Positions 519 to 28,041 of a stretch of DNA of 34,124 nt are shown here, in pieces. Where the stretch lies: the IMG/VR virus record IMGVR_UViG_3300020581_000137, positions 1 through 34,124 of that record. One strand, given 5' to 3'. The notes beneath the pieces are model-generated. The model did no database searches. It was given only the letters and a program-made list of their open reading frames with translations, and had not been told where the DNA came from. Position 1 is the stretch's first letter; each line of letters starts with the position of its first letter. The position numbers and the translations under genes were made by a program. This stretch comes from a virus.

Positions 519-949
519 TGATGTTCCTTGGCATTCCCGAGACGCAGTACTCCTTCGACGGAGGAAAGACGTGGGCAAACTATGGCGCTTGCATCTCTCC
601 AGGTTCTCGCATGCGCATCGTCAAGGATGGGAAGGTGCTCTACACCGCACATGCGGAAGAGAAAGTGCAGCAATGCACTACCTGCGAAGGGGCAGGGCAA
701 GAGAAGAAGCTGGAATACGTGCAGGATGGTGGATCGCGCCTCGAAGCGTGCGAGGTAATTACTGGCCGAATGGAATTGGAGCAGGAGTACGGGCAAGATC
801 ATCCGTGGGCGCAGTTCGATCTCTGGCATGAGGACTTCCATAAATGCGTGGATATTGCGTGGCCTTGTAAAAAACCTTTGCGGTGTTTTTGGCGCTGGAC
901 TCGGAAGACTGGTGTTGCTCTGAATCAGAGTGGAGTTATTGGAACGTGA
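518..949 (+). CDS. Unknown 143-aa protein with CxxC motif
   Basis: ATG at 518 overlaps the upstream TGA (TGATG) and follows a strong AGGAGGG site at 501-507. A second ATG follows at 521. The N-terminal 45 residues look like small beta strands (YSFDGGKTWANYG, RMRIVKDGKVLYTA). A CTTC knuckle at residues 53-56 could be half of a zinc-binding site, and the C-terminal part is rich in W, H, C and D. I do not recognise the family. The gene ends in a GTGA overlap with the ATPase gene, so it should be co-translated with it. Confidence 0.65.
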   Translation: MMFLGIPETQYSFDGGKTWANYGACISPGSRMRIVKDGKVLYTAHAEEKVQQCTTCEGAGQEKKLEYVQDGGSRLEACEVITGRMELEQEYGQDHPWAQFDLWHEDFHKCVDIAWPCKKPLRCFWRWTRKTGVALNQSGVIGT

Positions 950-2637
950 CCACCTCGATCCATCTCGGCTACGTAGTCGGCACCGGCGAACCGGTGGAGA
1001 TCCCGCTGCGTCATACGGCCGTAACCGGGCAAACGCAGGAATCCGGGAAGACTACCACGCTCGAAGGATTGATCCATCGATCCGGCCTGCAGGCCGTCGC
1101 CTACGTCACGAAGCGCGGAGAGTCCAGCTTCCACGTGATGCATCCGATCCCGCCGTACTTCCAGGAACGTGCCGATTGGAAGTTTGTGCAGTCCCTGCTC
1201 GAAGCGTCTACCGAAACCAAGCTGAAGTTCGAGCAATCCTGGATCATGCGGGCGTCTGAAGGTGCACGGACGCTGCAGGACGTTCGCGCGAATATCAATA
1301 AATTCTTGCATGGCGTGAAGGATCCCACTCCCGTAAAACGCCGCCGCGGTGCCGAGGTGAAGGAACGCTGGATCCAGAAACCGGCCCGCGGCCTGTCCGG
1401 TGATGTCTACTACGTTCTCGACAAATACCTCGATGACATCATGCCGCAGCTCGCGGAGATGCCCTACACCACGAAGCTGGCGCTGGCCGATGGGTTGAAC
1501 GTGATGGACCTCCGGGACTACGAGTTCCCACTGCAGGCCCTGGTGATCCGTTCGGTCACGGATCGGATCCGCGAGTACCTGGAAGATACGATCAACATCA
1601 TACCCGAGGCGTGGAAGTTCGCTCCGAAGCAGCGCGGATCCCCGGTGCGCCTGGCGGCCGAAGAATATGTGCGCGAAGCTGCGGCCATGAAAAACTTCCT
1701 CTGGATCGACTCCCAGGATCTGGCCGGGGTGGCCGATGTGCTGATGCGTCAGGTAGGCGTGTGGCTTTTCGGGGTGCAGCGGGCGAAGCATGAGATCGAA
1801 CGCGCTCTCGACCACATGCCGGAAGGGTTACCAGCGCGGCGCCCGCGGCCTGCGGACATTGCCACGCTCCAAAAGGGCCAGTTTTACGTGTGCTTCGGCC
1901 GGGAGATGTACAAAGTCTACGTGCAACCCGCCTGGATGACGGCGGCGCATGCGGAGGCCATTGCGCGCGGTGAAGAAGAAGTCAACTCGGCACACGACAT
2001 TCTAAAAGAATATGACAAACAAACGAAAGTGAGCCGAGTTGCCGCAGTCAAGCAAAAGGATACGTTTGTTCCTGATGTGTATGACGCTCCCGGCAATGTT
2101 CAAACGCGGTTGGCCGATCAGGAAGAGGAAGCCATGTGGAAAGAAAAGTACGAAGCGCTGAAACGTGAGTTTGATGAGTTGATTGCCAGCGGCACAGTTC
2201 CAGGAACACGGCCAGCGCTACCACCAGATGGCTCGATCACCGACATGCGCGAGTGGTTCGAGAAGTTCCCGAAGGAATCGCTCGAAGCCACGTACCAATA
2301 TGTTCGCAAGCGGATGCGCGAAGAGAACCCAAAAGATCTTCTTCTAGGAATTCAGAAGCAAGAGATGCAGGTCAAGATCGATCGCCCGGTGATCACCGTG
2401 GAAGCCAAAGATCTCTTTGGCCGCATGTGCCAGCTCGCTTCCGAAGGCTTCTTTAAGGAACCGCAGGGCGGAAAGGTGGCGACGGCGGAGGCAGTGCGCC
2501 GCGGTTGGTGCCATCCGAAAACTCCGGTGATGCGCGTGGAAACTGCGCTGGACAAACTCACCGGCATGGGGTTCCTTACGCGCGAGACGGACGGCTACCA
2601 GGTCACATCTTTCAAGATCAATGTGGTGGAGTCGTGA
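946..2637 (+). CDS. FtsK/HerA-superfamily ATPase (packaging or DNA-translocation type)
   Basis: A 563-residue protein from GTG 946 (GTGA overlap; GGAG at 932-935). The Walker A motif GQTQESGKT is at residues 28-36. A Walker B-like strand FLWID ends in Asp at about residue 255. A hydrophobic strand followed by a glutamine (GVWLFGVQR, about residues 270-279) resembles the sensor region of HerA/VirD4/FtsK ATPases. The last roughly 70 residues look like a winged-helix domain. HerA/FtsK ATPases pump DNA in chromosome segregation, in conjugation and in packaging by tailless membrane-containing viruses. No terminase is visible, so genome packaging is the best inferred role. A conjugation-type coupling role is less likely, since no relaxase or secretion genes are present. 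Confidence 0.8.
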   Translation: MTTSIHLGYVVGTGEPVEIPLRHTAVTGQTQESGKTTTLEGLIHRSGLQAVAYVTKRGESSFHVMHPIPPYFQERADWKFVQSLLEASTETKLKFEQSWIMRASEGARTLQDVRANINKFLHGVKDPTPVKRRRGAEVKERWIQKPARGLSGDVYYVLDKYLDDIMPQLAEMPYTTKLALADGLNVMDLRDYEFPLQALVIRSVTDRIREYLEDTINIIPEAWKFAPKQRGSPVRLAAEEYVREAAAMKNFLWIDSQDLAGVADVLMRQVGVWLFGVQRAKHEIERALDHMPEGLPARRPRPADIATLQKGQFYVCFGREMYKVYVQPAWMTAAHAEAIARGEEEVNSAHDILKEYDKQTKVSRVAAVKQKDTFVPDVYDAPGNVQTRLADQEEEAMWKEKYEALKREFDELIASGTVPGTRPALPPDGSITDMREWFEKFPKESLEATYQYVRKRMREENPKDLLLGIQKQEMQVKIDRPVITVEAKDLFGRMCQLASEGFFKEPQGGKVATAEAVRRGWCHPKTPVMRVETALDKLTGMGFLTRETDGYQVTSFKINVVES

Positions 2638-2837
2638 AGAGGATGAGAGTGGTACGGGCAAACACAATTCGCGATGAGACTTACCAGGGATTGGTGGAGC
2701 GGATCACTGGCATTTCCGAACTGCTGCTCAATAGTGGGAATCGAATCATCGCCATCATGGGTTCGCCGATGCCTTTACGTGAGACGGAATGGGTAGCGAC
2801 GATCTTCTCGGAATTCGATCAGGATGATCCCCGATGA
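2634..2837 (+). CDS. Unknown 67-aa protein
   Basis: Two starts are possible: GTG 2634, which overlaps the ATPase stop as GTGA and fits the pattern of this operon, or ATG 2643 (64 aa). The product is a mixed alpha/beta sequence with a helix around ETYQGLVERITGISELLL, a strand RIIAIMG and an acidic C-terminus. No motif is recognised. The stop overlaps the next start by 4 nt. Position in a coupled operon is the main support. Confidence 0.55.
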   Translation: MKRMRVVRANTIRDETYQGLVERITGISELLLNSGNRIIAIMGSPMPLRETEWVATIFSEFDQDDPR

Positions 2838-4039: not shown

Positions 4040-4939
4040 ATGGGCCGAACAACGATTGAGTGGACGGATGCTAGCTGGAACCCGATCGTGGGCTGTACGG
4101 AGATCTCGCCGGGCTGCGCGAACTGCTACGCCGCTCGCCTGGCTGCCACGCGGTTGAAGTACACGCCGCAGTACAAGGGACTCGCCACGATCGACAATCC
4201 GCCTGCGAACATCGGCCCGCGGTGGAATGGTGAAATCCGATTCATCCCCGAGCGCATAGAAGAACCAAAGCATTGGAAGAAGCCGAGGAAGATCTTCGTT
4301 TGCGACATGGGCGATCTGTTCCATGAGAACGTAGCAGACGAGTGGATCGAGAAAGTACTGATCACGATCCACGATTGCCCGCAGCACACCTTCCAGGTGC
4401 TCACCAAACGCGCCGATAGGATGCTCGCCTGGTTCCAGAAAGAATGGACGATCTACGGAAACTTCGCTGCTCCGTTGCCGAACTTGTGGTTAGGTGTGAG
4501 TGTCGAGAATCAACACTTCGCCAACGAACGCATTCCGTTACTCTTACATACGCCAGCACACATTCACTGGATCTCGGCCGAGCCATTGCTAGGCCCGCTC
4601 GACATGAAGGGATTGTTCACGCTTCGGGAAAGAAGTACGTTACACCCAGGCTGGGAGGGCTTGGATTGGGTGGTCTGCGGAGGCGAGAGCGGGCCGAATG
4701 CCCGGCCGCTGCATCCCGATTGGGTACGATCGTTGCGCGATCAATGCAACGATTCGTGTGTTCCGTTCTTTTTCAAACAGTGGGGCCAATTTCTTCCTGG
4801 CACATACCGGGATTGCAACGGTTCTGTAGTCCCGTACTTCTCCAAAGTCGGCAAGAAAGCTGCTGGCCGGTATATCGACGGCCGCACGTGGAACCAGTTT
4901 CCAGACGAACACTTGATGATGAAAGGGCTCGAACAATGA
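4040..4939 (+). CDS. Phage Gp37/Gp68 family (DUF5131) three-Cys protein
   Basis: A 299-residue full-length member of PF07505. It begins MGRTTIEWTDASWNP and has the family's three-Cys motif at C19, C26 and C29 (C-x6-C-x2-C). Later family blocks are also present: FVCDMGDLFHE, QVLTKRADRM, LWLGVSVENQ, HWISAEPLLGP and WVVCGGESGPNARP. The Cys motif and overall pattern suggest a radical-SAM-like iron-sulfur fold, but the substrate is unknown. AAAGGG at 4027-4032 is the ribosome site. It ends in an ATGA overlap with the next gene. Members are common in phages and prophages. Confidence 0.93.
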   Translation: MGRTTIEWTDASWNPIVGCTEISPGCANCYAARLAATRLKYTPQYKGLATIDNPPANIGPRWNGEIRFIPERIEEPKHWKKPRKIFVCDMGDLFHENVADEWIEKVLITIHDCPQHTFQVLTKRADRMLAWFQKEWTIYGNFAAPLPNLWLGVSVENQHFANERIPLLLHTPAHIHWISAEPLLGPLDMKGLFTLRERSTLHPGWEGLDWVVCGGESGPNARPLHPDWVRSLRDQCNDSCVPFFFKQWGQFLPGTYRDCNGSVVPYFSKVGKKAAGRYIDGRTWNQFPDEHLMMKGLEQ

Positions 4940-5659: not shown

Positions 5660-5733
5660 CTGAGAATCATAGACCGATGGTGTTGCCAGCATGGGTGGCT
5701 AAGATGAATGCTGAAGAAGCTGAGGCTTCAACC

Positions 5734-6168
5734 ATGAAGGCACTTTCTCTGTGGCAGCCGTGGGCTTCTCTTGTCGCGTTAGGCGAGAAGCGCGTTGAAA
5801 CGCGCATCTGGAGCACGAAACACCGCGGCCCGATGGCAATTCATGCAGCGCAGAAACTGCCACCGCGCTGGCTCGGAGCATCGCGTCACGCGGAAGCATT
5901 TATAAACGAACTTGCGGATGTGCTGAACTGCCGTCTCGATCGAGTCGATACGGAGATCCGAAAACTTCCTTACGGCAAAGTGTTGTGTATTGTCAATCTT
6001 TATGAAGTCCAAGAAACTTCCGCACTCAGGGAGATCCTTTGTCAGCGTGAACTGATCTTCGGGAATTACGAAGATGGGCGCTATGCCTGGTCTATGCAAG
6101 TGCTCGAAAGATTCGAAGTACCGATCCCGGCGAAGGGAAATCGGATGCTGTGGAATTGGGTGCGCTGA
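5734..6168 (+). CDS. ASCH-domain protein
   Basis: A 144-residue protein starting MKALSLWQPWA, the typical opening of ASCH domains (PF04266, PUA-like fold). The next block (RIWSTKHRGPMAIHAAQK, to residue 41) holds the family's conserved region. A later strand-rich stretch (YGKVLCIVNLYEV) completes the fold. ASCH domains bind RNA or modified nucleosides and are common in phages. A GAGG site lies about 10 nt before ATG 5734. ATG 5677 and 5704 in frame would leave less of a gap after 5659. The stop overlaps the next start (TGATG). Confidence 0.82.
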   Translation: MKALSLWQPWASLVALGEKRVETRIWSTKHRGPMAIHAAQKLPPRWLGASRHAEAFINELADVLNCRLDRVDTEIRKLPYGKVLCIVNLYEVQETSALREILCQRELIFGNYEDGRYAWSMQVLERFEVPIPAKGNRMLWNWVR

Positions 6169-8273: not shown

Positions 8274-8912
8274 TCACTGGAGAGAAGTCCAAATGGCCAT
8301 CCGGACCAGGCCGTTGTTCACGTACGCGGGATCAAACGTCTTTCCGCCGGGCTCGCCGGTGTTCCAGCAGCGGAAGAGAGAGGGGAATTCTTTCGCTACG
8401 TCGAGCTGGAAGCGCTCGGCAAACTGCGCAAGCAAGTGTACCGCGAAGACCAAGTTACCTTCCGGAGTTTTCAAACGCTCCAGAGTAGGAGCGATCGTGC
8501 CACGTTCTAAAAGGTGATAGCCCATGATCTGAGATAGGCCCCACGATGTCGCAAGGCTGTCCAGGCGCTGATAGGTGTCGGATGGGAGCATGGAGTTAGG
8601 CGATGGGGTGAGTGGCGAGAAACTAGATACATAGTACACCAGGTCAGCTCTACCGATGCTTCCGTAATCCGCTTTTCGTCCCATAAGAACTTCCCAGAGA
8701 GCATGCAGCACGCCTGGCTCGAATCTTTTTGCATCGGAGTTGCCTCCCGACTCACCCGCGACGAGTGCCGCGAGGAATTCCGCTGGCACACTTGACGTTT
8801 CCGAGACGCTAGCGATCGTCGCGCCGTGTGCGTCCTTGATCCTCTGCATCAAGTCTTTTTCTTGCTGAGATTGCGTTAGTTCGGTGTCAGTCATAATGCG
8901 GGTATTAATCAC
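8274..8912 (-). CDS. Lysozyme-fold muralytic enzyme (probable endolysin)
   Basis: Up to 212 residues from GTG 8912. ATG 8894 (206 aa) is the alternative and fits the promoter-like sequence at 8904-8932 better. The core EFLAALVAGESGGN (residues 45-58) carries the likely catalytic Glu54, and SWGLSQIMGYH downstream matches the G-L-(S/M)-Q-I motif of lytic transglycosylases and phage muramidases. The C-terminal half is helical (TPEGNLVFAVHLLAQFAERF). No signal peptide is present, which fits release through the neighbouring holin-like protein. It probably cuts host peptidoglycan at lysis. Confidence 0.72.
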   Translation of the reverse strand: MINTRIMTDTELTQSQQEKDLMQRIKDAHGATIASVSETSSVPAEFLAALVAGESGGNSDAKRFEPGVLHALWEVLMGRKADYGSIGRADLVYYVSSFSPLTPSPNSMLPSDTYQRLDSLATSWGLSQIMGYHLLERGTIAPTLERLKTPEGNLVFAVHLLAQFAERFQLDVAKEFPSLFRCWNTGEPGGKTFDPAYVNNGLVRMAIWTSLQ

Positions 8913-8932
8913 CTAAATTGGTCATCTGTCAA
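8904..8932 (-). promoter_or_regulatory. Possible internal promoter for lysis genes
   Basis: On the minus strand TTGACA (8932-8927) is followed after 17 nt by ATTAAT (8909-8904). It overlaps the end of the upstream gene and would start RNA close to ATG 8894. It is a sequence match only; the -10 is 4 of 6. Confidence 0.35.
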
Positions 8933-9468
8933 GTGGCTTCCTCAAATAGCCACAACGCAGCCACCCCGAGCACGGCCCACAGCAAAACACTTCCAAAAGA
9001 CGTTCCATCTACTGATGGTGGTGGAGCTATGGAAGCGTAGTCCGCCTGGAAGGAACCATAATTTTCCACCGGCAAACCCGTAGCCGCGTCCAGTACCAAA
9101 GGGGGAGCAGGCAAGACAGGGCTCCCAGGTCCCGTTGGGATAAACGCCTGGTAGCGCTTGGAGTTGTAACTGCTCCAGGGCTTGAATCCTGATCTCGAAT
9201 AGAGATCGAAGGCGGCGTGCGCATTGGTCTGCGGATCGTAGAGATCGACACCTTCATATTCCGGATGATCGCGCAGGTAGATCTGCCAGAGCCCGTACGA
9301 ACCCTTGCCTGGCGGTGTTCCGCCCGGCGCATTGGTTTCCGGATTATAGGAACGTTCGTTCCCGGAGGGAAGAGTTTCCGCCAAGGCGATCGCCACGGCC
9401 GTGATGAGATCCTGGCCGGAAAATCCAGCGTTGGCGGCGAGGTCGCGAATTTGGGAGGCATTCAACAT
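8929..9468 (-). CDS. Membrane-anchored SLT-like transglycosylase
   Basis: A 179-residue protein from ATG 9468 (TAAAATG junction with the upstream stop). The N-terminal 75 residues look like a lysozyme-fold domain: Glu31 in AIALAET is the likely acid, followed by RSYNPETNA and GSYGLWQI, the usual G-x-W-Q-I block. A Pro-rich linker follows, and a C-terminal membrane helix ends the protein (SVLLWAVLGVAALWLF). Virion transglycosylases cut the wall at entry. An anchored one would suit a virus with a membrane, as in PRD1-type phages. A frame extension to 9630 exists but lacks support. Confidence 0.72.
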   Translation of the reverse strand: MLNASQIRDLAANAGFSGQDLITAVAIALAETLPSGNERSYNPETNAPGGTPPGKGSYGLWQIYLRDHPEYEGVDLYDPQTNAHAAFDLYSRSGFKPWSSYNSKRYQAFIPTGPGSPVLPAPPLVLDAATGLPVENYGSFQADYASIAPPPSVDGTSFGSVLLWAVLGVAALWLFEEAT

Positions 9469-9469
9469 T

Positions 9470-9859
9470 TTATTTTGGCGGGCTGCAAGTACAGCCCGCA
9501 CCCGGAGCAGTTTCTTCGAGAGGCAGCAACGCCAGTTCGCGGATGTAATGCTCGAATTTATGACGCGAAGCAGGTTTGCCCATCGCCCAATAATAGAGGG
9601 CTCGCCTAGAAACGCCGATGCGTTTTCCAAGTATTGCCAGCGAATGGATCCGCAGCCGTGTCTGGACGATCACTATAGCCTTGGCGAGTACAATGCCATT
9701 GAATTTTGCGGATTCTTCGGTGGAAGCGATCTGAAGTTCCGTGGCAGAGAAAGCGGCGACCAGTTCCGCAGGAGTCAAACTGTTCTCGGATGACAGGGCT
9801 CCCGTGTCCACGGTAAGTGGAGCAGGGGAGATCGGTGCGGGTTGTGCCGCTGCGGTCAT
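9470..9859 (-). CDS. Putative helix-turn-helix protein
   Basis: A 129-residue protein from ATG 9859 (ATGA overlap). The first 30 residues are Pro/Thr/Ala-rich and low in structure. Residues 74-96 read as a helix-turn-helix (LAILGKRIGVSRRALYYWAMG) with the usual Gly at the turn and an aromatic-rich recognition helix. The C-terminus is GCTCS. It could regulate the leftward operon or act as a small DNA-binding virion protein. The position just before the lysis genes would suit late regulation. Not a recognised family. Confidence 0.58.
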   Translation of the reverse strand: MTAAAQPAPISPAPLTVDTGALSSENSLTPAELVAAFSATELQIASTEESAKFNGIVLAKAIVIVQTRLRIHSLAILGKRIGVSRRALYYWAMGKPASRHKFEHYIRELALLPLEETAPGAGCTCSPPK

Positions 9860-10161
9860 ACGTCCTCTGGATCATGCGCACCGTGTAGATCGATTATATC
9901 GTCTTCTTCATCGCCCGCGAGTTCACAGATCTCATCCAGCCATTCTTCGAGTTCGTCGCCGTCTCCTGGCGGCAGATCCGGGATCTCGCGCACGTATTCG
10001 ATCGTTTCCTTGGCGCGGAACGCTGGGCCAAAATCTGGGCATCCGCCCGCGTGCTGGCGTAGCGCAGTTTCGGCGGCCTGGCGCGTCCCGGCAAAGAAGA
10101 CGTGCGCGATACGTACTTGGCCATCAGAGTCTTTCTTGAAGGAAAACAAGGCTATGGGCAT
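9856..10161 (-). CDS. Unknown acidic 101-aa protein
   Basis: ATG 10161 follows AGGGATG (GTG 10164 is an alternative). The first 55 residues form a small alpha/beta domain (RIAHVFFAGTRQAAETALRQHA) with one Cys. The last 40 residues are strongly acidic (DELEEWLDEICELAGDEEDD), like DNA mimics or adaptor tails. It is coupled by 4 nt to the HTH gene. Function unknown. Confidence 0.58.
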   Translation of the reverse strand: MPIALFSFKKDSDGQVRIAHVFFAGTRQAAETALRQHAGGCPDFGPAFRAKETIEYVREIPDLPPGDGDELEEWLDEICELAGDEEDDIIDLHGAHDPEDV

Positions 10162-10192
10162 CACATCCCTATAGTTAAAATCTTGGAGAAAG

Positions 10193-10516
10193 TCAATGGC
10201 CTTTAACGACAGCGATCACCAAGCCAGCTACGAGTAGCGCTAGCGTGACTGCCCCGAGCAGAATCCCCCAGGACGCGCTGAAGCCGGAACTCTTGCCTGT
10301 AGATTCGTTCTTGGCGGTTTCGAGGGCTGCCATGCGACCTTGGAGGGCGCGGGCTTCGACGCGAAGTGGTTCGGCGACCAGTGGTACGGCCGCGTTGGCT
10401 GCCTTCTGCTGCTCTTCGAGGCGTGCAATGCGCTCACCGAGTTCTAAGCGCTCTTCCGCGCGGGCGACACGTTCGGAAAGCGCGTGGAATTCTTTGGGGT
10501 CAATGCCTTCGTTCAT
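10193..10516 (-). CDS. Coiled-coil protein with C-terminal membrane helix
   Basis: A 107-residue protein from ATG 10516, with AAGGA upstream and a 17-nt overlap with the preceding gene. Residues 8-60 are an Arg/Glu/Leu/Ala coiled coil (ERVARAEERLELGERIARLEEQ). Residues 80-104 are a hydrophobic helix ending in KGH. It would expose its helical part to the cytoplasm or virion interior. The frame runs up to 10624, but 10516 has the best ribosome site. Spanin and scaffold roles are possible; nothing decides. Confidence 0.65.
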   Translation of the reverse strand: MNEGIDPKEFHALSERVARAEERLELGERIARLEEQQKAANAAVPLVAEPLRVEARALQGRMAALETAKNESTGKSSGFSASWGILLGAVTLALLVAGLVIAVVKGH

Positions 10517-17875: not shown

Positions 17876-18790
17876 TTATGAACCTTTCAGCAAAAAGTAT
17901 CCGGCTACGAGCATCGCGGCGATCGGTAACCATCCACTCGAACTCTGCGCCGCTGGTAAAGCGGCGGCACCGGCAGGTGCGTAAAAGGTTGAATAGCTGC
18001 TCGCTGGCACCGTCGAGCCTGCAGGGGAAGTGACGTTCGGCCGGTTTGGTGTCACCGTCACTGCCGCTGCGTCGATTAAATCTTGGTATTCGCTCTGCTT
18101 CGCGAGCACGATCGCGTGCAGCTCCGTCGCCAGAACACATGCGGCGTTGCATTCGCCGCTATCGTTTGGATCCGTACCGTGCCGGATCGAAGACACTTTG
18201 GAATTGAAGTCGCTGTACAGGGAGTTCAGCGCGTCGATCGCGTGCTGTGGAGTGGCATACCCTGCCTGAACAGCTTCTTCGATGATCCGTAGGGTATTGT
18301 TGGCTGCCGGAACCGCGGCGCAGAGAACGCTCTGCTCTTTCTTCACCGCCTGCGCGTGATGGTTCATTATGATCGGGAAAATTCCGATCAGCGCGGAGAT
18401 GCCCATGGTCCAGGGTGCCAGCGCAGCGGCTGTCACTGCTCCCGTAGCAAGCAAGCCCATAGACACACCCGTGAGCGCCAGGCCCGAAGCAGTTTGCGCC
18501 AGCTTCACGTCGCTATTGACTCCTGTAGCCGAGCAATCGCCAGTCCCTGGCATGTACGCATTGGCGGATCCGCCGACCAGACCAGCCTGGACGGATGCCA
18601 CAATCTGGTTATAAGTGTCCATGTTGTGGCCAGCGTTTGGGGAGCGTGGCGCGTTCGGGAATACTTGCTTCGCGGCCGCGTCTGCGGTGAGAGCGCCAAG
18701 GAAGTCGCTACGGTAAGGAGCGCCAGAAAAAAGACCGTGCAGACCGGTATCGCAGCCGCAATCCTTCCCCTGGCAGGTACAAGCGTTCAT
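17876..18790 (-). CDS. Membrane protein with Cys-rich N-terminus and C-tail anchor
   Basis: A 304-residue protein from ATG 18790, overlapping the upstream stop by ATGA. Residues 4-14 have four Cys (CTCQGKDCGC). A hydrophobic region of one or two helices is at about residues 100-140 (ALTGVSMGLLATGAVTAAALAPW, GISALIGIFPIIM). The middle is helical. A final membrane helix (WLPIAAMLVAGYFLLKGS) ends the chain. The frame runs on upstream to 18940, within the previous gene. A virion membrane protein is the likely role, given the gene order. Confidence 0.65.
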   Translation of the reverse strand: MNACTCQGKDCGCDTGLHGLFSGAPYRSDFLGALTADAAAKQVFPNAPRSPNAGHNMDTYNQIVASVQAGLVGGSANAYMPGTGDCSATGVNSDVKLAQTASGLALTGVSMGLLATGAVTAAALAPWTMGISALIGIFPIIMNHHAQAVKKEQSVLCAAVPAANNTLRIIEEAVQAGYATPQHAIDALNSLYSDFNSKVSSIRHGTDPNDSGECNAACVLATELHAIVLAKQSEYQDLIDAAAVTVTPNRPNVTSPAGSTVPASSYSTFYAPAGAAALPAAQSSSGWLPIAAMLVAGYFLLKGS

Positions 18791-19337: not shown

Positions 19338-19937
19338 CTAATCCGGCCAGTTAAAACGCCTTGCTACACCGTAAAGCACTACCTGGATCTGATTGCTGGC
19401 GCCGCTAACGTCCTGATTCTGCACAATCACCAGACACTGCGCGTTTGGCTCGGTGAAGGGATGCGGAGAACGCAGGAAGTACAGCCCGGATCCCTGTCCG
19501 GTAGAATTTCCAGGAGCGAAACCAGCTCCGAAGTAGTTGGCGAAGTTCACGCCTCGGCCAGCCAGGCGCACGCCAGGCTTTTCCTGGCCGTAGTCCTTCT
19601 TCATGTCGTAGAGTTGCGCGCGGAATCCACCGGCCAGCGAAGAACTCCCGGCCAGTGCGAGTAGATGGAAATCTTTCTGGACGTTGATCCGTAGTTGCGT
19701 AGTCTGCCGAGCTGGCAGCAGTGCCGTGGCGCATTCCCAGATCGGTGTGAAGCCATCCTCGAAACCCGCGGGATGCTTCTGCGCGAGGTGGTAGACCTGC
19801 TCCTGCCAGGAATGCAACGGCAGCATACGTGCCATCGTATGGAAGAGCACGCTCTGCTGCCGCTTAGGATTCATCGGTTGATGGAAGGAAGCCGACCGCG
19901 CGGCCGATGAATCTTTGGTGAATCCGGAATAAGGCAT
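19338..19937 (-). CDS. Beta-rich virion protein candidate (pair member 1)
   Basis: A 199-residue protein from ATG 19937 (AAGGA upstream, after the hairpin at 19953-19982). The N-terminal 65 residues are basic and helical. The rest alternates short strands (QLRINVQKDFHLLALAGSS, FRAQLYDMKK, SGLYFLRSPHPF, CLVIVQNQDVSGASNQIQVVLYG). The ending SGAxN-hQhVhxG also closes the neighbouring protein 19995-20429, so the two look like paralogues with a single jelly-roll-like fold. Two different small barrels beside a capsid gene suit minor capsid, penton or spike roles. Confidence 0.62.
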   Translation of the reverse strand: MPYSGFTKDSSAARSASFHQPMNPKRQQSVLFHTMARMLPLHSWQEQVYHLAQKHPAGFEDGFTPIWECATALLPARQTTQLRINVQKDFHLLALAGSSSLAGGFRAQLYDMKKDYGQEKPGVRLAGRGVNFANYFGAGFAPGNSTGQGSGLYFLRSPHPFTEPNAQCLVIVQNQDVSGASNQIQVVLYGVARRFNWPD

Positions 19938-19994: not shown

Positions 19995-20429
19995 TTACTG
20001 GACTGATGGTCTGGGCCACAGCTTGAAGCCGCTGAATACCAGTTGTACGGTGTTGGCCGCTCCGCTGGATTCCGTGAATAGCAGCGAATACACGCGCGTG
20101 GCGGGCATCACGTAGGGCACCGCCAGAGGAAACGATCCATTGCCCTGCGCTGTGCCGCACCAGTTGTCAATGTTGATGCCGTTGAAGACCGCGCCGCCCG
20201 CCTGCGCCTGTGGTGAAGTACCGATGAAGTCACGGCCGGTGGCCTGTTCTTTCATCATCACCTTGAGACGGTTGTCCGTTCGGCTGGCTAGCATCCACCA
20301 CCATTCGAAATCAGCATCGGAGAGAATCTGCAGCGCATTAGGGTCTTGCACTGCGTTCAACGGAACCACGCGATCGAGCACGTAGGAAAAATATTGCCGC
20401 TCGAATTGATCGTCTAACATCGAATTCAT
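19995..20429 (-). CDS. Beta-rich virion protein candidate (pair member 2)
   Basis: A 144-residue protein from ATG 20429 with a CAGGAGAG site. Strand pattern: FEWWWMLASRTDNRLKVMMKEQ, GRDFIG, then GNGSFPLAVPYVMPATRVYSLLFTE and SSGAANTVQLVFSGFKLW. The block fP-x-(L/V)-P ... xxN-xhQhhhxG is also seen in 19338-19937. It is probably a single jelly-roll-type virion protein. The gene sits between the hairpin at 19953-19982 and the small basic gene. Confidence 0.62.
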   Translation of the reverse strand: MNSMLDDQFERQYFSYVLDRVVPLNAVQDPNALQILSDADFEWWWMLASRTDNRLKVMMKEQATGRDFIGTSPQAQAGGAVFNGINIDNWCGTAQGNGSFPLAVPYVMPATRVYSLLFTESSGAANTVQLVFSGFKLWPRPSVQ

Positions 20430-20780: not shown

Positions 20781-21548
20781 TTAGAGGATCGCGCGCGCCA
20801 GCACGCCTTCCAAATACACGTGAGCGTTGATGCCCGTGCCGATGAAGATCGACGCAGGCGCCGCCGCTAGCGTGGTGAACGCCGCCACGCCGCTGATCGT
20901 TGGATCCAGAATAACTGCGAAATTCTGGTTCTGTTCGATGAGCTGGCCGAGGATCGGTTCCATCGGATCGAGTCCGGGGATCTGCGGCATCGGATCGGTG
21001 ATCGTCGCGACGTTTTGCGCCGATGGCCAACCGTTTGAACCGCTGGTGCCCAGAGTCGCGGCCGTTGGGCTCACACCACTCCAGAAGCTGCCCGCACCGG
21101 CCGGAGTCTTACTGACTATTGAAGTCCAGTAGTCCTTTCCGGAGATGGAGAGCTGAATCAGGGTGGTGCCGATGAAAGAGTTCAAGTCCTGCGGACCAAC
21201 ATCCGACCGCAGAACCGTTGCCACTGCTTTCACCAGGAACTTTTTTGGCGCGTCGAGCATGCCGTTCTGGACGAGGTTCGTGTGATACAGCGTCTTGGTG
21301 AACGCCGCACCACCCGCAGGAGTGTATTGCGTGCCGATCGCAGTGGCGAAGAGTTGCTGCTTCGTCACCTGCGTGGCCACCGCAACCCCGTAAAAATCGT
21401 AGATGGGTTGAACCAGGTACTCCAGTTGCCCTGCCACGATGGGGTTTTTGCGGAAACCAACGTACTTCGGTCGCCCTACTTCCCTTTCTGCCAGTACGGG
21501 TAGATGCGCATAGCGCGATTCGTACCGTGAAGAATATCTGCTGTTCAT
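20781..21548 (-). CDS. Candidate major capsid protein
   Basis: A 255-residue protein from ATG 21548 with a strong GGGGTGATC ribosome site (the frame extends to 21602 without support). The N-terminus is Arg/Tyr/Ser-rich (SSRYESRYAHLP). The body has a central domain (DAPKKFLVKAVATVLRSDVGPQDLNSF, TLIQLSISGKDYWTSIVSKTPAGAGSFWSG, SNGWPSAQN) and an ordered C-terminal end (GQLIEQNQNFAVILDPTISG, FIGTGINAHVYLEGVLARAIL). There is no signal peptide, Cys or membrane helix. Position between the glycine-rich membrane protein and the small beta proteins, and the strong leader and RBS, point to the main coat protein. The fold (single or double jelly-roll, or other) cannot be proved by eye. Confidence 0.6.
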   Translation of the reverse strand: MNSRYSSRYESRYAHLPVLAEREVGRPKYVGFRKNPIVAGQLEYLVQPIYDFYGVAVATQVTKQQLFATAIGTQYTPAGGAAFTKTLYHTNLVQNGMLDAPKKFLVKAVATVLRSDVGPQDLNSFIGTTLIQLSISGKDYWTSIVSKTPAGAGSFWSGVSPTAATLGTSGSNGWPSAQNVATITDPMPQIPGLDPMEPILGQLIEQNQNFAVILDPTISGVAAFTTLAAAPASIFIGTGINAHVYLEGVLARAIL

Positions 21549-21643: not shown

Positions 21644-22159
21644 TCATCCGTACCCGCCTGCGTAACGCGAGCGGAAACGGTGATAGCCGAGATGGCTCTT
21701 GACTGGCGCGACCGCAACCGGACCTTGCGGGCCAGGGAAGACGATGGTTCCACCTCCACGGTTGAATCCGCCAGGAACGTTGCCAGCCGCGGCTTGCAGG
21801 TACTGACTGGAAGCCGTGGGAACGGCGAACCAGCTCGGAGCGTACAGTCCAAGCCCAGGCGTGTTGATGCCCGCCTGCTTCAGTGCCTTCAGCACGGTGA
21901 TCGCTAGACCGCCTTTCAGCATGTCTGCGCCCGCCGAGCCACCAAACATTCTGCCGAGGAACCCGGCGCCTACCGATGCAGCCGCCGAAGCGGCTACGCC
22001 AGCCCAGCCAGAGGCCATGCTAGGCGCAACCATTCCAGGCAGTGCAGCGGCGGCGACTGCTCCCGCAGCTACGAATGCCGCTTCTTTCACCAGACCACCG
22101 GAGATCCCTAAGGGATTCCTGCGGTGATGCCGGTGATGATGCTTTCTGTGATATGCCAT
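21644..22159 (-). CDS. Basic, Gly/Ala-rich membrane protein
   Basis: A 171-residue protein from ATG 22159 with a very strong GGGAGGTGA ribosome site. The N-terminus is a His/Arg cluster (HRKHHHRHHRRNPLG). Residues 20-75 are almost only Ala, Gly, Val and small residues, enough for two membrane helices with glycine zippers. Then come GGLAITVLKALKQAG, PGLGLYAPSWF and a basic C-terminus (YHRFRSRYAGGYG). A His/Arg-rich head followed by Gly/Ala helices suits a protein at a DNA-membrane interface in a virion. Strong translation suggests an abundant protein. Confidence 0.65.
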   Translation of the reverse strand: MAYHRKHHHRHHRRNPLGISGGLVKEAAFVAAGAVAAAALPGMVAPSMASGWAGVAASAAASVGAGFLGRMFGGSAGADMLKGGLAITVLKALKQAGINTPGLGLYAPSWFAVPTASSQYLQAAAGNVPGGFNRGGGTIVFPGPQGPVAVAPVKSHLGYHRFRSRYAGGYG

Positions 22160-22239: not shown

Positions 22240-22260
22240 TCCACGCCTAACCGGCGTGGA
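22240..22260 (-). terminator. Hairpin at the end of the 22247-22924 gene
   Basis: TCCACGCC (22240-22247) and GGCGTGGA (22253-22260) form a perfect 8-bp stem with loop TAACC, overlapping the stop codon. On the minus strand it is followed by TTTAGAAAG, only a weak T-run. It may be an attenuator or processing site that separates the strong 22159 gene from those upstream. Confidence 0.45.
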
Positions 22261-22924
22261 AGGCACCGCCGACAAAATACGCTTCCATAAATCCTTGGCT
22301 GTCCGGCTCGATGTTGATCAAGAGAGCAGCGTGAGTATGCTCGCTCGGATCCGTCGCGCACTTGATCCGGCCGAACCCGCTATCCTTCAGGCCACCGCCG
22401 CACATCACCTGGAGTTCAGATAGTGGCTGGAAGATCAAATACGTCTTTCCGCTCACTCGATCGGTGATCTTGCCGCAAGCGCGATCCCCTACCACGGGAC
22501 ATCCAGCCAGCCGTTGCTCGATACGCGGGACCTTCGCCGTCTTACAATCCGCCGCAGGCGCTACCTTGAGCCCGTTCCAGCGCGGATCCGGAATATCCGG
22601 CAACGGTGGCAACTTGAAAGGAATCAGAAGATCGTTGCGGTCCTTACTGATCGCCAGGATCGGCGCGTTTGTATGCGTCAACCAGTCCAGCGTCATCGCG
22701 CACCAGGTCTTGCGCTGCCACTTCGAAAACATCCCCGGAACATCACTCTGGCTGCTGCCGATAGTGCTGCGCTGCACTTCCCACACCACGCAGGTGAGCC
22801 TCCCGATGCGGTAGTACTCACGGTTCTGGATGCGTTCCTGCTGGATGCGGATCCGATCCGTAAGCGTGAATGTCGGCTTGGTGATGATCATCGGCGCCGG
22901 TGCAGTTTGTGATGCCGTTTCCAT
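22247..22924 (-). CDS. Unknown 225-aa protein
   Basis: ATG 22924 overlaps the upstream stop (TAATG), with AAAGG upstream. The N-terminus has a helical, Arg/Gln-rich segment (DRIRIQQERIQNREYYRIG). The rest mixes strands and loops with about five Cys (RLTCVVWEV, WCAMTLDWL, DCKTAK, AGCPVVGDRACG, QVMCGGG). It ends with a compact hydrophobic stretch (ALLINIEPDSQGFMEAYFVGGAFHAG). No known domain is recognised. Its location just before the membrane and capsid genes suggests a virion or assembly role. Confidence 0.58.
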   Translation of the reverse strand: METASQTAPAPMIITKPTFTLTDRIRIQQERIQNREYYRIGRLTCVVWEVQRSTIGSSQSDVPGMFSKWQRKTWCAMTLDWLTHTNAPILAISKDRNDLLIPFKLPPLPDIPDPRWNGLKVAPAADCKTAKVPRIEQRLAGCPVVGDRACGKITDRVSGKTYLIFQPLSELQVMCGGGLKDSGFGRIKCATDPSEHTHAALLINIEPDSQGFMEAYFVGGAFHAG

Positions 22925-23130: not shown

Positions 23131-24054
23131 CTAGTTATGTATCCAAGGCCCTTCGATGCGATAGTCGCCGCCTTCGTAGAGCAATCTTTTGCTTCGCGTG
23201 TCGAACAACACCGTGGGAAGCGCGCCGTTTTCTTCTCCGTGCGTGTGGCGCCACTCGTCGGTATCTTCGTCGCCGATGTGGTGCTTCTTACCGATGTAGT
23301 GAATCTCGCGGCCATCTCCGATCTTCAGATGCCCATCCATGCTTCTAGATCCGAAATCTCCGAACGCCGCCAAGCATTCCGTGATGTCCTGATTGCCATC
23401 CACGAAATAAATCTGCTTGCCACTGGCATCCGAAACGATCAACGGAGCACTGTTCCCTTCAAACGTAATCTTCTGCACCGGGCCACCCTTCACTGGCTTG
23501 ACGAGCAGGCGAAACAGCTTGGCGAGATAGGCGTAGCGGCCGCGGGGGATGTGTGGTTCGTTGTAAACATCCAGCCACTTCACTTCCACGCCGCTGAATT
23601 CTTCGGCAATCTCTTCGACTGGCGGGTTATCGCCGTGAACGACTTCCACGCGCGGGTTGGCGGCCATGATCACCAGTTCGGAGGGGTTTTTTCTTGCGGC
23701 CTGGCGATACTCTGCGGCAAGGGCCTTGAATCCTTTCTTTTCTGCCTTGTCGGCGAGTTTCAAGAGTGATGCGCTTATTTTCTCCACTTCTCTTAGCCGC
23801 TTGGCTTCGACGCTACGCTTTCGCGGTGGATTGTTCGCGCTCATCACCATCAGTTCCGCGGGATTTGCACTCTTCAATCCGCAAGAAGGATTCTCGCGGA
23901 TCGGATGCAGAATACTGATCAGGCGCCCGGAACCTTTTATTTTCCTGCCTGGAGGAAACGCTACACGCACGCGATGATCGCCATGCTTGACGGTGCGCAC
24001 GTGCCACCCACTGGGAACAAAGGAAACGTCCTCGCGTCTGAATCTTCCAGCCAT
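23131..24054 (-). CDS. Unknown 307-aa protein with NP-ELxxM-AN repeats
   Basis: ATG 24054 overlaps the upstream stop (TGATG). An N-terminal basic beta domain (RFRREDVSFVPSGWHVRTVKHG) is followed by two copies of a short motif, NPAELMVMSANNP (about residues 69-81) and NPSELVIMAANPR (about 118-130). They flank a Lys/Arg helix (SVEAKRLREVEKISASLLKLADKAEKKG). The C-terminal half is an alpha/beta domain rich in His and Asp (HGDNPP, DGREIHYIGKKHHIGDEDTDEWRHTHGEEN). A metal site there is possible. The duplicated motif may be a docking or cleavage site. I cannot name the family. Confidence 0.6.
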   Translation of the reverse strand: MAGRFRREDVSFVPSGWHVRTVKHGDHRVRVAFPPGRKIKGSGRLISILHPIRENPSCGLKSANPAELMVMSANNPPRKRSVEAKRLREVEKISASLLKLADKAEKKGFKALAAEYRQAARKNPSELVIMAANPRVEVVHGDNPPVEEIAEEFSGVEVKWLDVYNEPHIPRGRYAYLAKLFRLLVKPVKGGPVQKITFEGNSAPLIVSDASGKQIYFVDGNQDITECLAAFGDFGSRSMDGHLKIGDGREIHYIGKKHHIGDEDTDEWRHTHGEENGALPTVLFDTRSKRLLYEGGDYRIEGPWIHN

Positions 24055-24473
24055 CACGCCGCCACCGTAGACTGCGACGACTGCACGAAGATGTAATCCG
24101 TATCGCGATACCAATCGACCGCTTTCCGCCAGCCAATCGCCATCGCTTTCCACGCCAGGGAATTCGCGCCTTCGATCTCTTCGGCAGTCAATCCCGAGCT
24201 GTCAGTAAGGAATTTCTGCTGGCAGGCCGCGCAGTGATTGAGGAACGTGTCGAAATCCGGAATGCCGAGAGGCACAAAGGATTCGATGACATGGAAACAG
24301 TAAGCGTGCGCGCGGACCTGATCACGATAGATTCTCACCGACATATCTATCGCTGGACTCATTCCGGGATTGTCCTTCATGCGGTGAACGTGTCCAAGTT
24401 CGATCGTGCGCACCGGCTTCCCCGCTTTCCAATCAGCGAGCACGTGAAGCGTATCTGGTACGATTGGTGTCAT
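24054..24473 (-). CDS. Unknown 139-aa protein
   Basis: ATG 24473 overlaps the stop of the preceding gene (ATGA). It is a mixed alpha/beta sequence with His/Cys around residues 20-82 (LGHVHRM, AHAYCFHVIES, LNHCAACQQKF) that could bind a metal, then a Trp-rich helix (NSLAWKAMAIGWRKAVDWYRD). No family is recognised. The coupled position between two unknown virion-cluster genes supports reality. Confidence 0.58.
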   Translation of the reverse strand: MTPIVPDTLHVLADWKAGKPVRTIELGHVHRMKDNPGMSPAIDMSVRIYRDQVRAHAYCFHVIESFVPLGIPDFDTFLNHCAACQQKFLTDSSGLTAEEIEGANSLAWKAMAIGWRKAVDWYRDTDYIFVQSSQSTVAA

Positions 24474-25462
24474 CTCCGTTTCCCGCCAAACAAGCCCGAG
24501 GCCAATGGGCCAGCCATCACCAGCGCGACGGCGCCGAGTCCGATCCACTTCGCATTCGTCATAAGCCAGGTTTCGAGCGTGCTCGCGGATTGCGGCTGCG
24601 CTCCGGTGGATGCCAGTGTCTTCAGGATTGCCTGCGCGGTCACGGTGTCGCCCTTCGCTTGCGCTGCAGCAAGCGCCGAGAGCAGATCTTTATTCGTGGA
24701 GGCTGTGGATTGCGTTTGCGTCTGCGTGGCATTCGCCTGAATCGCGTTCACGTCTACCGACTTGCTCCAAGTGTGAATCGCGTAGAGCGTGATGAAAGCG
24801 CCGACGATGAAGACGGCCGCGCCCGCCACCCAAACCAGTGGAGCGATCCCCAGACCAGAGATCCCGGCTGGCGCCGATCCCATCAGCAGCGTGTAGTAGC
24901 GCGTGAACTGCGTGGCCAGGTCTGAATATTGTTGGCGTTTCGCGATCAGATCGCGGCCAACTGCCGCAGCCACGCCGGGAACTGTTTGCGCCTGGTGCTC
25001 GAGTGTCTGCAGATCCTGATTCACTTCCTGGAATAGACTGACCAGGTTGGCCCAAGACGAGGAATCGGTGGGATCGTAGCCCAGCACGTCCTGGAAACTC
25101 ATCGAACCTTCAAGAATCGCATCGTGTTCCGCCTGCGTGATGTGGCCCGCAGCTAGAAGTTCGTCCGCCGCTTCGCCGGTGGGATCGGAAGCAGCGCCGA
25201 GGCCATGCAGATGCCAGGCTTGCGATTTGAAGGGATGGTTCTGGCCCAGCTCGCCGAATTCGCCGAGGCCGCTGAGTTTGTGATCGGTGTGATGAACGTC
25301 CGTATAGAGTTCCCACGGATCAAACGGACGATTCAAATAGTATTCGCCGAGCCCGCCGGCATCGGCCGGAACTCCCGAAAGATGCGCTGCACCAAACGGA
25401 TTGGTTTGCCCGTACGGCCGGAAGCCCACTTTGTTGCCCGTGTCTGCGATCATGTAGGCCAT
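24470..25462 (-). CDS. Virion membrane protein candidate with GLGEFGELGQ motif
   Basis: A 330-residue protein from ATG 25462, adjacent to the previous stop (TAAATG). The N-terminal 90 residues include GLGEFGELGQ (about residues 67-76), almost the same as the motif in 25463-26077. A helical middle (ANLVSLFQEVNQDLQTLEHQ) follows. One membrane helix is at about 203-228 (APLVWVAGAAVFIVGAFITL) and a second at the C-terminus before GGKRR. The part between the helices is Ala/Gln/Thr-rich and helical. Two helices with basic tails would place the loops on one side of a membrane. Confidence 0.66.
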   Translation of the reverse strand: MAYMIADTGNKVGFRPYGQTNPFGAAHLSGVPADAGGLGEYYLNRPFDPWELYTDVHHTDHKLSGLGEFGELGQNHPFKSQAWHLHGLGAASDPTGEAADELLAAGHITQAEHDAILEGSMSFQDVLGYDPTDSSSWANLVSLFQEVNQDLQTLEHQAQTVPGVAAAVGRDLIAKRQQYSDLATQFTRYYTLLMGSAPAGISGLGIAPLVWVAGAAVFIVGAFITLYAIHTWSKSVDVNAIQANATQTQTQSTASTNKDLLSALAAAQAKGDTVTAQAILKTLASTGAQPQSASTLETWLMTNAKWIGLGAVALVMAGPLASGLFGGKRR

Positions 25463-26077
25463 TTAACGCTTCCCCATTGCGAGCGCCGCTACGGCCGCAA
25501 GAGCAAACAGCGCCCAATTCGGAACTCCGGGAATGGATTGCTGCGTGAGCACCGAAGCTGCCGAACCTGGCACCGCAGGAACTCCCACGCGCGGCGAAGG
25601 GCCTGGAGCAAGATTCACGCCGCCAGCGCTCGCCGCTTTGGTTACGTCGGCAGCAGACTTCATGGCAGCAGCAACGGCCGAAGAAGAAGCCACTCCCGGC
25701 TTCATCGTGCCGCTAGCCACGGCCTGCGCGTACAGGTTGGCGATGTCCTGCTGATTCGAAGTGATGGTTGGACCAGTATTGAGCAGGTTCCCGGCAGGAT
25801 CAAATGAAGAAGGTTGCAGATTCAGATCGGCGCCACTAGGAATCAGAAGGAGTGGATTGTTGGGATAAAAATCGGATGGCACGTTAGGGACGAGAGATCC
25901 GCCTTCGTACATCGTGGGATCGATCGCAGGCGGTGGAGTATCCGTCCACATCGGATCGATGCTCATGGTATCGACCAGGGCCGGATCCTGGCCCAATTCT
26001 CCGAGTTCGCCGAGCCCCATGAGGTATAGCGGAGTTCGCGAAGCCCGCACCGTATGTGGATGATAACCCTCGATCAT
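25463..26077 (-). CDS. C-tail-anchored protein with GLGELGELGQ motif
   Basis: A 204-residue protein from ATG 26077. The motif GLGELGELGQ lies at about residues 21-30. The middle is Pro/Asp/Asn-rich and probably extended (MSIDPMWTDTPPPAIDP). It then runs into an Ala/Ser helix and one C-terminal membrane helix (NWALFALAAVAALAM) followed by GKR. The same design (motif, extended region, C-terminal helix, basic tail) is seen in its neighbours. The gene has an unusual leader with two overlapping palindromes (26092-26120). Confidence 0.66.
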   Translation of the reverse strand: MIEGYHPHTVRASRTPLYLMGLGELGELGQDPALVDTMSIDPMWTDTPPPAIDPTMYEGGSLVPNVPSDFYPNNPLLLIPSGADLNLQPSSFDPAGNLLNTGPTITSNQQDIANLYAQAVASGTMKPGVASSSAVAAAMKSAADVTKAASAGGVNLAPGPSPRVGVPAVPGSAASVLTQQSIPGVPNWALFALAAVAALAMGKR

Positions 26078-26138: not shown

Positions 26139-27125
26139 TCAGCGCTTGCCTTTGAGCAGCATCGAAGCAAGAACAGCCGCACCGGCCACCAAACCCCAAT
26201 TGGGAATCGCAGCCCAGAGCGAGCTGGGCTGCTCCAGCCAGCTCATCGCGTTAGCAACCACCCCGGAACCTGCAACGGCAGTTGTGGCAATCAATTGGCC
26301 TGTGGCTGGATTCTGCGTTACGGACGAAGCAGGAACGACCGTTCCGGTCGAAAGATTCAAATAGTTTCCGCTGCCGTCGTTCAGTGGAACGACTTGATTG
26401 GTCGCGACGATCGGTGCAGGCGTAGGTGAAACCGGTGGAGCAACTGCAACCGGAATGCTCGGCGCAGGCGGAAGAGGCAGCGGCGAAGATGGCGGTTTAT
26501 TTACCACACTGGTGGCGCCGGTGGCTGGATCCGCAACCAGGTGCGTGATCGCGCAGCCATTCGCATCGGTGCCCGCGCTTTCGTAGTGATAGCCTCGCGG
26601 TGGTGGCGCCATGCTGGTTGGACAGGAAACAATGTTCGGGCGCCACACAACAGGAAATGGCATTGGCCCAGGCATCGGAGGGCCGCCATTTGTAAAAGCG
26701 CCGCGGTTCATCAATTCTGGCATTATCCCGAGCGCCGCGGCCGCCACTGAGTCCGGCAGGAAAGCGTCTTCGAGTGTTTCAAAATAATCCGAAGGAAACG
26801 AACCGGGCGCTACGGCCGTGCCCGCATGCTTCTCCGTCTGATAACCGCGGTACGTGTGCGCGTGACCAGATGCATTCGGGCGAGGGGGAACTTCCGCCGA
26901 GGAACGATAGACGCCGTACGGGTTTCGTTGATTCGCGTGCGCCGTATCGTGTGCCGACATCCCATCTTCGCGATCCTGTTCAAATTGATCATTGGGAAGA
27001 ATGTCCGTGCCGCGGGATTCGGTGTGGGTAAAACCTTTGTAGTGTCCGCCTGCAGGTCCACCCGGAACGGTGAGACGCCATCCGGGATACGCAAAATGCT
27101 TTCCGTCGCGGTAGGCGCTTAACAT
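26139..27125 (-). CDS. Pro-rich C-tail-anchored protein
   Basis: A 328-residue protein from ATG 27125 (one nucleotide after the upstream stop, TAAAATG; the longer frame to 27308 is not supported). The first half is His/Gly/Tyr/Asp-rich (YPGWRLTVPGGPAGGHYKGF, QFEQDREDGMSAHDTAHANQ). The middle has a dense Pro/Ala/Val stretch (SSPLPLPPAPSIPVAVAPP). The end is a single membrane helix (NWGLVAGAAVLASMLL) with KGKR. It may be a spike stalk or a virion membrane anchor. The function is inferred only from layout. Confidence 0.63.
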   Translation of the reverse strand: MLSAYRDGKHFAYPGWRLTVPGGPAGGHYKGFTHTESRGTDILPNDQFEQDREDGMSAHDTAHANQRNPYGVYRSSAEVPPRPNASGHAHTYRGYQTEKHAGTAVAPGSFPSDYFETLEDAFLPDSVAAAALGIMPELMNRGAFTNGGPPMPGPMPFPVVWRPNIVSCPTSMAPPPRGYHYESAGTDANGCAITHLVADPATGATSVVNKPPSSPLPLPPAPSIPVAVAPPVSPTPAPIVATNQVVPLNDGSGNYLNLSTGTVVPASSVTQNPATGQLIATTAVAGSGVVANAMSWLEQPSSLWAAIPNWGLVAGAAVLASMLLKGKR

Positions 27126-27126
27126 T

Positions 27127-28041
27127 TTATTTGCGACCTCCGAGAAGCAGCAGCGCGCCCACGCCCAGCGCCAACCATAATCCGAGGTTCGAGCTGGCGG
27201 TGAGTGAAACCCCTGGCCTTGGAGGCGAAGAGTATCCGGCCGGTGGCACGCCATACGGCGAATATCTTGTTTGGAACGAAGTCCACGGCCCGGAAGAACT
27301 GTAATCAAACGGACTCGCTGCCTGGCCCTGTGAAGCGCGGATGATGTCTGCGGTGACTTGCCCGGTAGTCGCGATCATCGTGGAAGTACTGTCACCGCTC
27401 GAAGCATCTCCCATCGTCCGCACGCGGCCGTAAGATCCGAGCCCACTGATCATGTGGCTGCGATACCGCGGATAAAGTCCGAGGCCGCTCACGCCCGAAC
27501 CGGAATCTCCAAGCGCCCACCACTTCGAGCGGTACACCATTGGCGGCGCAACGCCGAACTGCGAATCACTGCGCGCCGCATCCATCGGGATCCACTGTCC
27601 GGATCCGGCCGGAACTTCCCCTTCGACGTACACATGGGAAAACTGATCGGGCGCGCTAGGGCTCGCCGCCACCGTCACCAGCCGAGCGGGATAACCCACC
27701 GCCATGAGTAGAGTTCCGGTGAGCATCGAAATATCGTCACAATCGCCTGACCGGATCTTCAGCAGCTCCGCTGGCGGATAAAGCGTTTCCTTGTTTACGG
27801 GATCCTTCGTGAAGCGGATGTTCCTCCGCACCCACTCGTAGATCGCATTCGCTTCCGCAACATCATCGAACGCGGGTGCACTGCGTACGATGTCACGGGC
27901 TAGCCGATTCACGGAGGAATCGCGCAACGCCTCATCGACGAGCGCGCGCATCTGGTTGATGGTTTGTTCTACGCCAGAATCGCCGCCGAGCAGCGGCATC
28001 ACGTACGTTTCCGGTGGGAAAGCGATCGGCATTGAGCCCAT
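27127..28041 (-). CDS. Transglutaminase-like protein with C-terminal membrane helix
   Basis: A 304-residue protein if it starts at ATG 28041. No clear ribosome site is seen, ATG 28032 is also possible, and the frame is open to a TTG at 28233. The transglutaminase-like core (Transglut_core, PF01841) holds the catalytic triad: Cys101 in SGDCDD, His in FSHVYVEG and Asp in PMDAARSD. GLG motifs follow (VSGLGLYPRYRS, ISGLGSYG), then a C-terminal membrane helix and GGRK. It could crosslink or cleave capsid proteins or trim peptidoglycan peptides. It is the first gene of the leftward arm. Confidence 0.76.
   Translation of the reverse strand: MGSMPIAFPPETYVMPLLGGDSGVEQTINQMRALVDEALRDSSVNRLARDIVRSAPAFDDVAEANAIYEWVRRNIRFTKDPVNKETLYPPAELLKIRSGDCDDISMLTGTLLMAVGYPARLVTVAASPSAPDQFSHVYVEGEVPAGSGQWIPMDAARSDSQFGVAPPMVYRSKWWALGDSGSGVSGLGLYPRYRSHMISGLGSYGRVRTMGDASSGDSTSTMIATTGQVTADIIRASQGQAASPFDYSSSGPWTSFQTRYSPYGVPPAGYSSPPRPGVSLTASSNLGLWLALGVGALLLLGGRK

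Follow-up and report, generated by a model that had tools for sequence, protein, structure and literature searches.

The IMG/VR virus record IMGVR_UViG_3300020581_000137 (34,124 bases; the window analyzed here covers the whole record) appears to be the genome of a tailless, icosahedral double-stranded DNA (dsDNA) phage with a single-jelly-roll capsid and an internal membrane, one of about 30 genomes of an undescribed lineage that probably infects Acidobacteriota. We give this reading a probability of roughly 0.84. The approximately 30 genomes form a previously undescribed multi-member group, distantly related to the isolated Salisaeta icosahedral phage 1 (SSIP-1); the lineage lies outside all families tested, and its link to SSIP-1 is one virion protein. 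An earlier note on this DNA, made from the letters alone, had proposed a new lineage of tailless, membrane-containing viruses, a proposal now supported by these genomes, their closed maps and homology to the SSIP-1 protein gp34, with the membrane as the part that we infer. Below, genes are named by their first position in the window, with the strand in brackets.

The capsid gene of the window is present in 28 further IMG/VR records and in one contig of a metagenome-assembled genome (MAG) of Terriglobia (Acidobacteriota). The capsid candidate has 12 close IMG/VR relatives, plus one found by profile. Searches with the ATPase add a divergent clade that has the late genes in common with the others, and a broader capsid profile adds further records to give the 28 besides the window. 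In profile searches of genome contigs, the profile of the close relatives gives no match, and the broader profile finds the Terriglobia MAG contig. The computed gene order of the late arm is constant across three clades, comprising homologs of 9856, the fibers, 16056, 17119, 19338, 19995, the capsid gene, 21644, 22247, 23131, the anchored proteins and the transglutaminase, followed by the divergently oriented 28340 and, in most records, the helicase. The main variable point is the position of the 17876 gene, whose homolog in the MAG virus sits between 21644 and 22247.

Exact end overlaps of 77-169 nucleotides (nt) are found in 17 of 20 tested records, comprising overlaps of 77-127 nt in 15 of the 18 fully fetched relatives, and of 99 and 169 nt in two additional records, the latter being the MAG contig. 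Such overlap lengths are typical of what assemblers leave on circles. The junction is crossed in individual records by the capsid gene (as in the record with the 99-nt overlap), 22247, 28340, a transglycosylase, 16056 and fiber genes. With the overlaps removed, the closed maps range from ∼32.4 kb (G008) to 38.7 kb (G024), bearing out a genome size of about 34 kb; the size is not unprecedented, as large tailless viruses are already known (SSIP-1, 43.8 kb; SH1, 30.9 kb). A linear, circularly permuted genome would also be compatible with the lineage maps. In the window, both ends fall inside a single open reading frame (ORF) of 203 aa with an alanine repeat, whose parts join in frame (33659-34124, continuing at 1-146(+)), and the window is therefore probably circular, so that the genome would be essentially complete and circularly closing. 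The assembly broke at this alanine-repeat (GCC)n gene, in which the repeat number is uncertain.

Since the ends of the MAG contig overlap, a whole virus was binned with the Terriglobia MAG. The binning hints at an Acidobacteriota host, without proving it, and the host is probably Acidobacterium or, more broadly, Acidobacteriota. Among the papers searched, none combines Acidobacteria, jelly-roll and tailless.

Pfam and PHROG scans of the window proteins give no convincing match to terminase, portal, protease or tail families, as the earlier note had claimed, and PF03237, phrog_2, PF04860 and PF05065 are without a match in the window. Among 24 lineage records from the three clades, none is matched by the terminase large subunit profiles PF03237 (0/24) and phrog_2 (0/24), by the portal profile PF04860 (0/24; other portal families were not searched in all records) or by the HK97 capsid profile PF05065 (0/24). 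Control records that share only the ATPase are matched by PF03237 (10/43), phrog_2 (10/40), PF04860 (9/23) and PF05065 (9/23), and the profile method thus works on phages of similar size and source. The absence of a few profiles falls short of proof of taillessness. A highly diverged tailed phage, with its terminase, portal, capsid and tail genes beyond profile reach and the jelly-roll protein serving as head decoration or fiber, would account for the many core proteins without a family and for an ATPase family common in tailed phages, but we regard it as very improbable in view of the empty result for all four profiles in three clades, the place of the jelly-roll protein among the most conserved virion genes, and the gp34 homology to a tailless phage.

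The major capsid protein (MCP) candidate of the favored tailless phage is a protein of 255 aa (20784-21548(-)), which is predicted by an AlphaFold2 model to form a single jelly-roll; few virion genes of the lineage are as well conserved. The first model, from 13 close relatives, was poor (predicted local distance difference test score, pLDDT, of 43) and was replaced by one from 22 sequences, including 40%-identical orthologs and two paralogs of 23-24% identity. In the replacement, the pLDDT is 69 overall and mostly 75-89 in the barrel, and the predicted template modeling score (pTM) is 0.63. The top-scoring PDB chain is 6oj0_A of SPV1 (Z 8.2 over 144 residues, 4.2 Å), and matches are also found to HHIV-2 (Z 6.4), SH1 (6.2) and HCIV-1 (6.0). 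Foldseek likewise places SPV1 at the top (E 0.018, probability 0.98), and in a viral structure library the named matches are largely small capsid proteins. D13 and PR772 chains match at Z 5.5-6.3 with high root-mean-square deviation, the 255-aa model being one barrel. The structure check that had been proposed for the capsid candidate thus gives a jelly-roll model, with no HK97-fold chain among the 50 PDB matches listed. The confidence of the model is moderate. Sequence searches with the MCP against phage records, the PDB, PHROGs and Pfam return nothing usable.

Small beta-rich proteins lie on either side of the capsid candidate, as had been noted, and are seen in both sequence and alignments. 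The conserved beta-rich protein next to the MCP (19995-20429(-), 144 aa) is a candidate second capsid or penton protein with 60-85% identity across nine relatives. It weakly matches a piece of the SSIP-1 structural protein gp47 (E 1e-4 to 2e-5; 1e-3 with a deeper profile). A further conserved beta-rich protein (19338-19937(-)), present in all full records in fixed order, is a candidate minor capsid protein or spike base, while alignments and gene order make 17119-17871(-), with a conserved C-terminal beta-rich domain of ∼150 aa, a candidate minor capsid or vertex protein. The profiles of 19995 and 17119 find no PDB relative, and neither protein has a match in phage records. The shell would be built of the single-jelly-roll MCP, with 19995, 19338 and 17119 probably acting as minor capsid, vertex or spike proteins. 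Diverged capsid paralogs occur in four relatives (G020:14696-15319(+), G022:6908-7531(-), G071:24361-24798(-) and G017:3584-4540(-)), near the 9856 homolog in at least some records, and may represent a second capsid protein or a penton.

The link to SSIP-1 is carried by the transglutaminase-like protein (27127-28041(-); PF01841, E 9e-14), a predicted membrane-anchored virion protein homologous to SSIP-1 gp34, which is annotated as structural (tblastn 3e-14; hhalign probability 99, E 5e-18). The catalytic residues Cys101, His136 and Asp154 are conserved, also in gp34 (304 aa, equal in length to the window protein), and both proteins have a C-terminal membrane helix. Weak transglutaminase-like matches also occur in Geoglobus acetivorans pleomorphic virus 1 and in 159-kb and 4.5-kb fecal phage records. 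In the literature, SSIP-1 appears as a T=49, membrane-containing phage that has a circular dsDNA genome of 44 kb and capsid proteins of the single-barrel kind (PMC6260650, PMC4958249, PMC6356626), and it has been called a vertical single-barrel virus (PMC4958249). It resembles the window in its circular dsDNA of tens of kb and in a comparable set of C-terminal membrane anchors with an anchored transglycosylase (gp54, of the same layout as 8929-9471), but differs in that its likely capsid proteins gp45 and gp46 and most of its other genes show no detectable similarity, and in its hypersaline Salisaeta host. When the main profiles are compared with SSIP-1, one match is solid (the transglutaminase with gp34) and two are weak, 19995 with gp47 and 23131 with gp38, both of these becoming weaker with a deeper profile. 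With gp46 as bait, only SSIP-1 itself is found.

Seven proteins of the leftward arm (8929, 10193, 17876, 24470, 25463, 26139 and 27127) have a membrane-like helix in their last ∼30 residues, often followed by a basic tail, where the earlier note had counted at least six. The same script finds none in HK97 (0/46) and T7 (0/40) and several in P23-77 (4/26) and SSIP-1 (10/53, some of the SSIP-1 helices being unconvincing), so that the anchors exceed chance. They comprise the transglutaminase, a virion-arm protein (17876-18790(-)), a basic-tailed protein that has membrane helices both internally and at its C-terminus (24470-25462(-)), two proteins with a C-terminal helix and basic tail (25463-26077(-) and 26139-27128(-)), a small protein (10193-10516(-)), and a lysozyme-like transglycosylase (8929-9471(-); SLT_3, PF18896, E 1.6e-15), which provides the membrane-anchored transglycosylase of the earlier note. 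A second lytic transglycosylase-like protein (8274-8894(-)) matches SLT at 6e-4, slightly below the curated cut-off, and weakly matches the PRD1 P15 muramidase (E 0.003). Because of the seven C-terminal anchors and the gp34 homology, an internal membrane in the virion is likely. This membrane would lie under the shell and carry at least seven C-terminally anchored proteins, including the transglutaminase-like virion enzyme, and the anchored transglycosylase would open the cell wall at entry.

A different view of these helices is prompted by the fiber-like and exported proteins of the same arm. Fiber-like protein 1 (10908-14111(-), 1067 aa) has an N-terminal domain and signal peptide paralogous with those of fiber-like protein 2 (14108-15586(-)), the Sec signal peptide of which ends ...ALMAQFTIVTG, and the two genes share a 79% DNA repeat. 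These proteins and the exported product of a core gene present in all 18 full relatives (16056-17090(-); signal peptide ...SRSQF) start with a Sec-type signal peptide, after which comes a conserved stretch (in most fibers AQFTTVSG or a close variant). By a simple pattern, the signal peptide is found in at least one fiber of 17/18 full relatives and in the 16056 protein of 16/18. Conservation of the post-cleavage AQFTTVSG spans 10908-17090 of the window and relatives G003-G024. The Sec signal peptides imply export, which is odd for a particle assembled in the cytoplasm, and the exported fiber-like proteins may, from their sequence, be spikes that join the particle at the membrane, or else proteins of the cell surface. 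As the Sec signals suggest that part of the late arm acts at the host envelope, and as lipid is invisible from sequence, the phage could be a tailless single-jelly-roll phage without an internal membrane, in which the proteins with C-terminal helices serve in lysis, in entry or at the host envelope. We consider this unlikely, since at least seven anchors lie in the virion arm, one of them on the homolog of a structural protein of a membrane-containing phage, and since the large single-jelly-roll viruses matched by the fold (SPV1, SH1, HHIV-2 and HCIV-1) are themselves membrane-containing (PMC8459092, PMC5332951).

The membrane-containing phage favored here can be compared with other tailless groups. 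SPV1 (Portogloboviridae), to which the MCP model is closest in fold, is an archaeal virus of about 20 kb with circular dsDNA, an icosahedral particle and a lipid layer (PMC8459092). Halopanivirales (P23-77, SH1, HHIV-2 and HCIV-1) belong to Helvetiavirae, now placed in their own realm, Singelaviria (PMC12451622). In structure comparison they match the predicted single-jelly-roll fold of the MCP model, and membrane-anchored proteins are likewise present in P23-77 and SH1, but the window has no significant sequence homology with the proteins of these two viruses (genomes of 17 and 31 kb). Halopanivirales have two different MCPs; the window shows one MCP candidate, and the diverged paralog of some relatives may be a second.

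The ATPase (946-2637(+)), with a variable C-terminal extension, is, as judged from motifs and profiles, a distant HerA/FtsK-type P-loop protein. It has a conserved Walker A motif (GQTQESGKTT) and a conserved PEAW Walker-B-like motif. Single-sequence Pfam and PHROG scans give no match, while a 30-member profile weakly matches HerA/DUF87 chains (best E 0.019), and 11-13 family members weakly match AAA_10/FtsK. The gene is present in every full lineage record, and in its tree the lineage members mostly cluster, with the divergent clade apart. The ATPase has no match in phage records, its profile gives nothing significant against the proteins of P23-77 and SH1, and no HerA-type ATPase of this family is detected in SSIP-1. 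The family is frequent in large phage contigs (L042-L121), many of which have a terminase, portal or HK97 capsid. Caudoviricetes with the same ATPase (L058-L121) resemble the window in the ATPase itself (∼41-53% identical) and, in some, in DUF5131 and ASCH genes, but many carry a terminase, portal or HK97 capsid, and at the loci compared no virion gene of the lineage is seen. The FtsK/HerA ATPase of the earlier note is therefore present as a distant relative, but because its family is widespread in tailed phages it is not diagnostic of tailless ones, and the idea that its presence proves tailless packaging was dropped. The role that we infer with slight preference for this HerA/FtsK-type ATPase is genome packaging, in which it would substitute for terminase and portal.

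Several points weigh against a tailless, membrane-containing phage. The virus is known here as sequence, and its virion, infection cycle and host are predictions. The pTM of the MCP model is middling, and its best Z score barely exceeds the level of unrelated folds, while barrels of peptidylglycine monooxygenase (PHM) reach Z 6.0-6.7 in the same PDB list; given this modest score and the close PHM barrels, a jelly-roll fold for 20784-21548 is likelier than any particular kinship. The MCP lacks sequence similarity to any PDB chain and profile similarity to SSIP-1 gp45/gp46, and the diverged paralog is found only in some relatives, with none in the window. A very divergent terminase could escape the profiles, and the role here of an ATPase whose family is common to tailed phages is uncertain.

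In an ORF survey, the rightward early arm encodes the ATPase, DUF5131 and ASCH, followed by the DnaB-type helicase and its neighbors, and the long leftward arm (∼7.6-28 kb) contains the capsid candidate. Families recognized in the window proteins by Pfam and PHROG scans are the transglutaminase core, SLT_3, DnaB-N/AAA_25, DUF5131, ASCH, DUF1643 and the DnaA C-terminal domain. Replication would rely on the DnaB-type helicase (29859-31292(+); DnaB-N, PF00772, 1.3e-25; AAA_25, PF13481, 7.5e-20) and a DnaA domain IV-like protein (225-518(+); PF08299, 1.3e-7, exceeding the cut-off). This module is plasmid-like, as would fit a satellite or plasmid-like element using the particle of another virus. 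Direct evidence for such an element was not found, and it is extremely improbable, because every full member has a conserved late operon that encodes fibers, membrane proteins and a capsid candidate of its own.

The other proteins conserved in this phage lineage include a probable membrane protein directly upstream of the MCP, with a His/Arg-rich N-terminus and hydrophobic segments (21644-22159(-)), three core proteins of unassigned function (22247-22924(-), 23131-23847(-), and the small 9856-10164(-), kept in nearly all records), and a core protein with an Ala/Pro-rich middle, encoded divergently from the transglutaminase gene in all full relatives (28340-29743(+)), which has no family match in the profile scan. 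Genes for DUF5131 (4040-4939), ASCH (5686-6168) and DUF1643 (31600-32076) lie outside the virion arm, and their relatives are also found near the ATPase in tailed-phage records. A palindrome-like repeat, GTACTTACGGGCGC (core GCCCGTA-CT-TACGGGC), occurs in five copies in the window (0.24 expected), at 3670, 5183, 7868 and 15664 (+) and 20710 (-), mostly near gene starts or ends. It is rare or absent in the checked loci of relatives, and is possibly an operator for a repressor or host regulator.

A bolder and rather doubtful extension of these results would make the group a founding order- or higher-level lineage of single-jelly-roll membrane phages infecting Acidobacteriota. Their receptor-binding proteins would be exported by the Sec pathway and meet the particle at the membrane or beyond it, and their genome-packaging motor would be a HerA-type ATPase exchanged with tailed phages. 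With this lineage, one virion protein of SSIP-1 gains a homolog in other species, and the ∼30 genomes allow the core virion genes to be read. The HerA-type ATPase of this family is unusable as a marker of tailless phages. The lineage points to an Acidobacteriota host, and its fiber proteins with conserved Sec signal peptides raise a testable puzzle.

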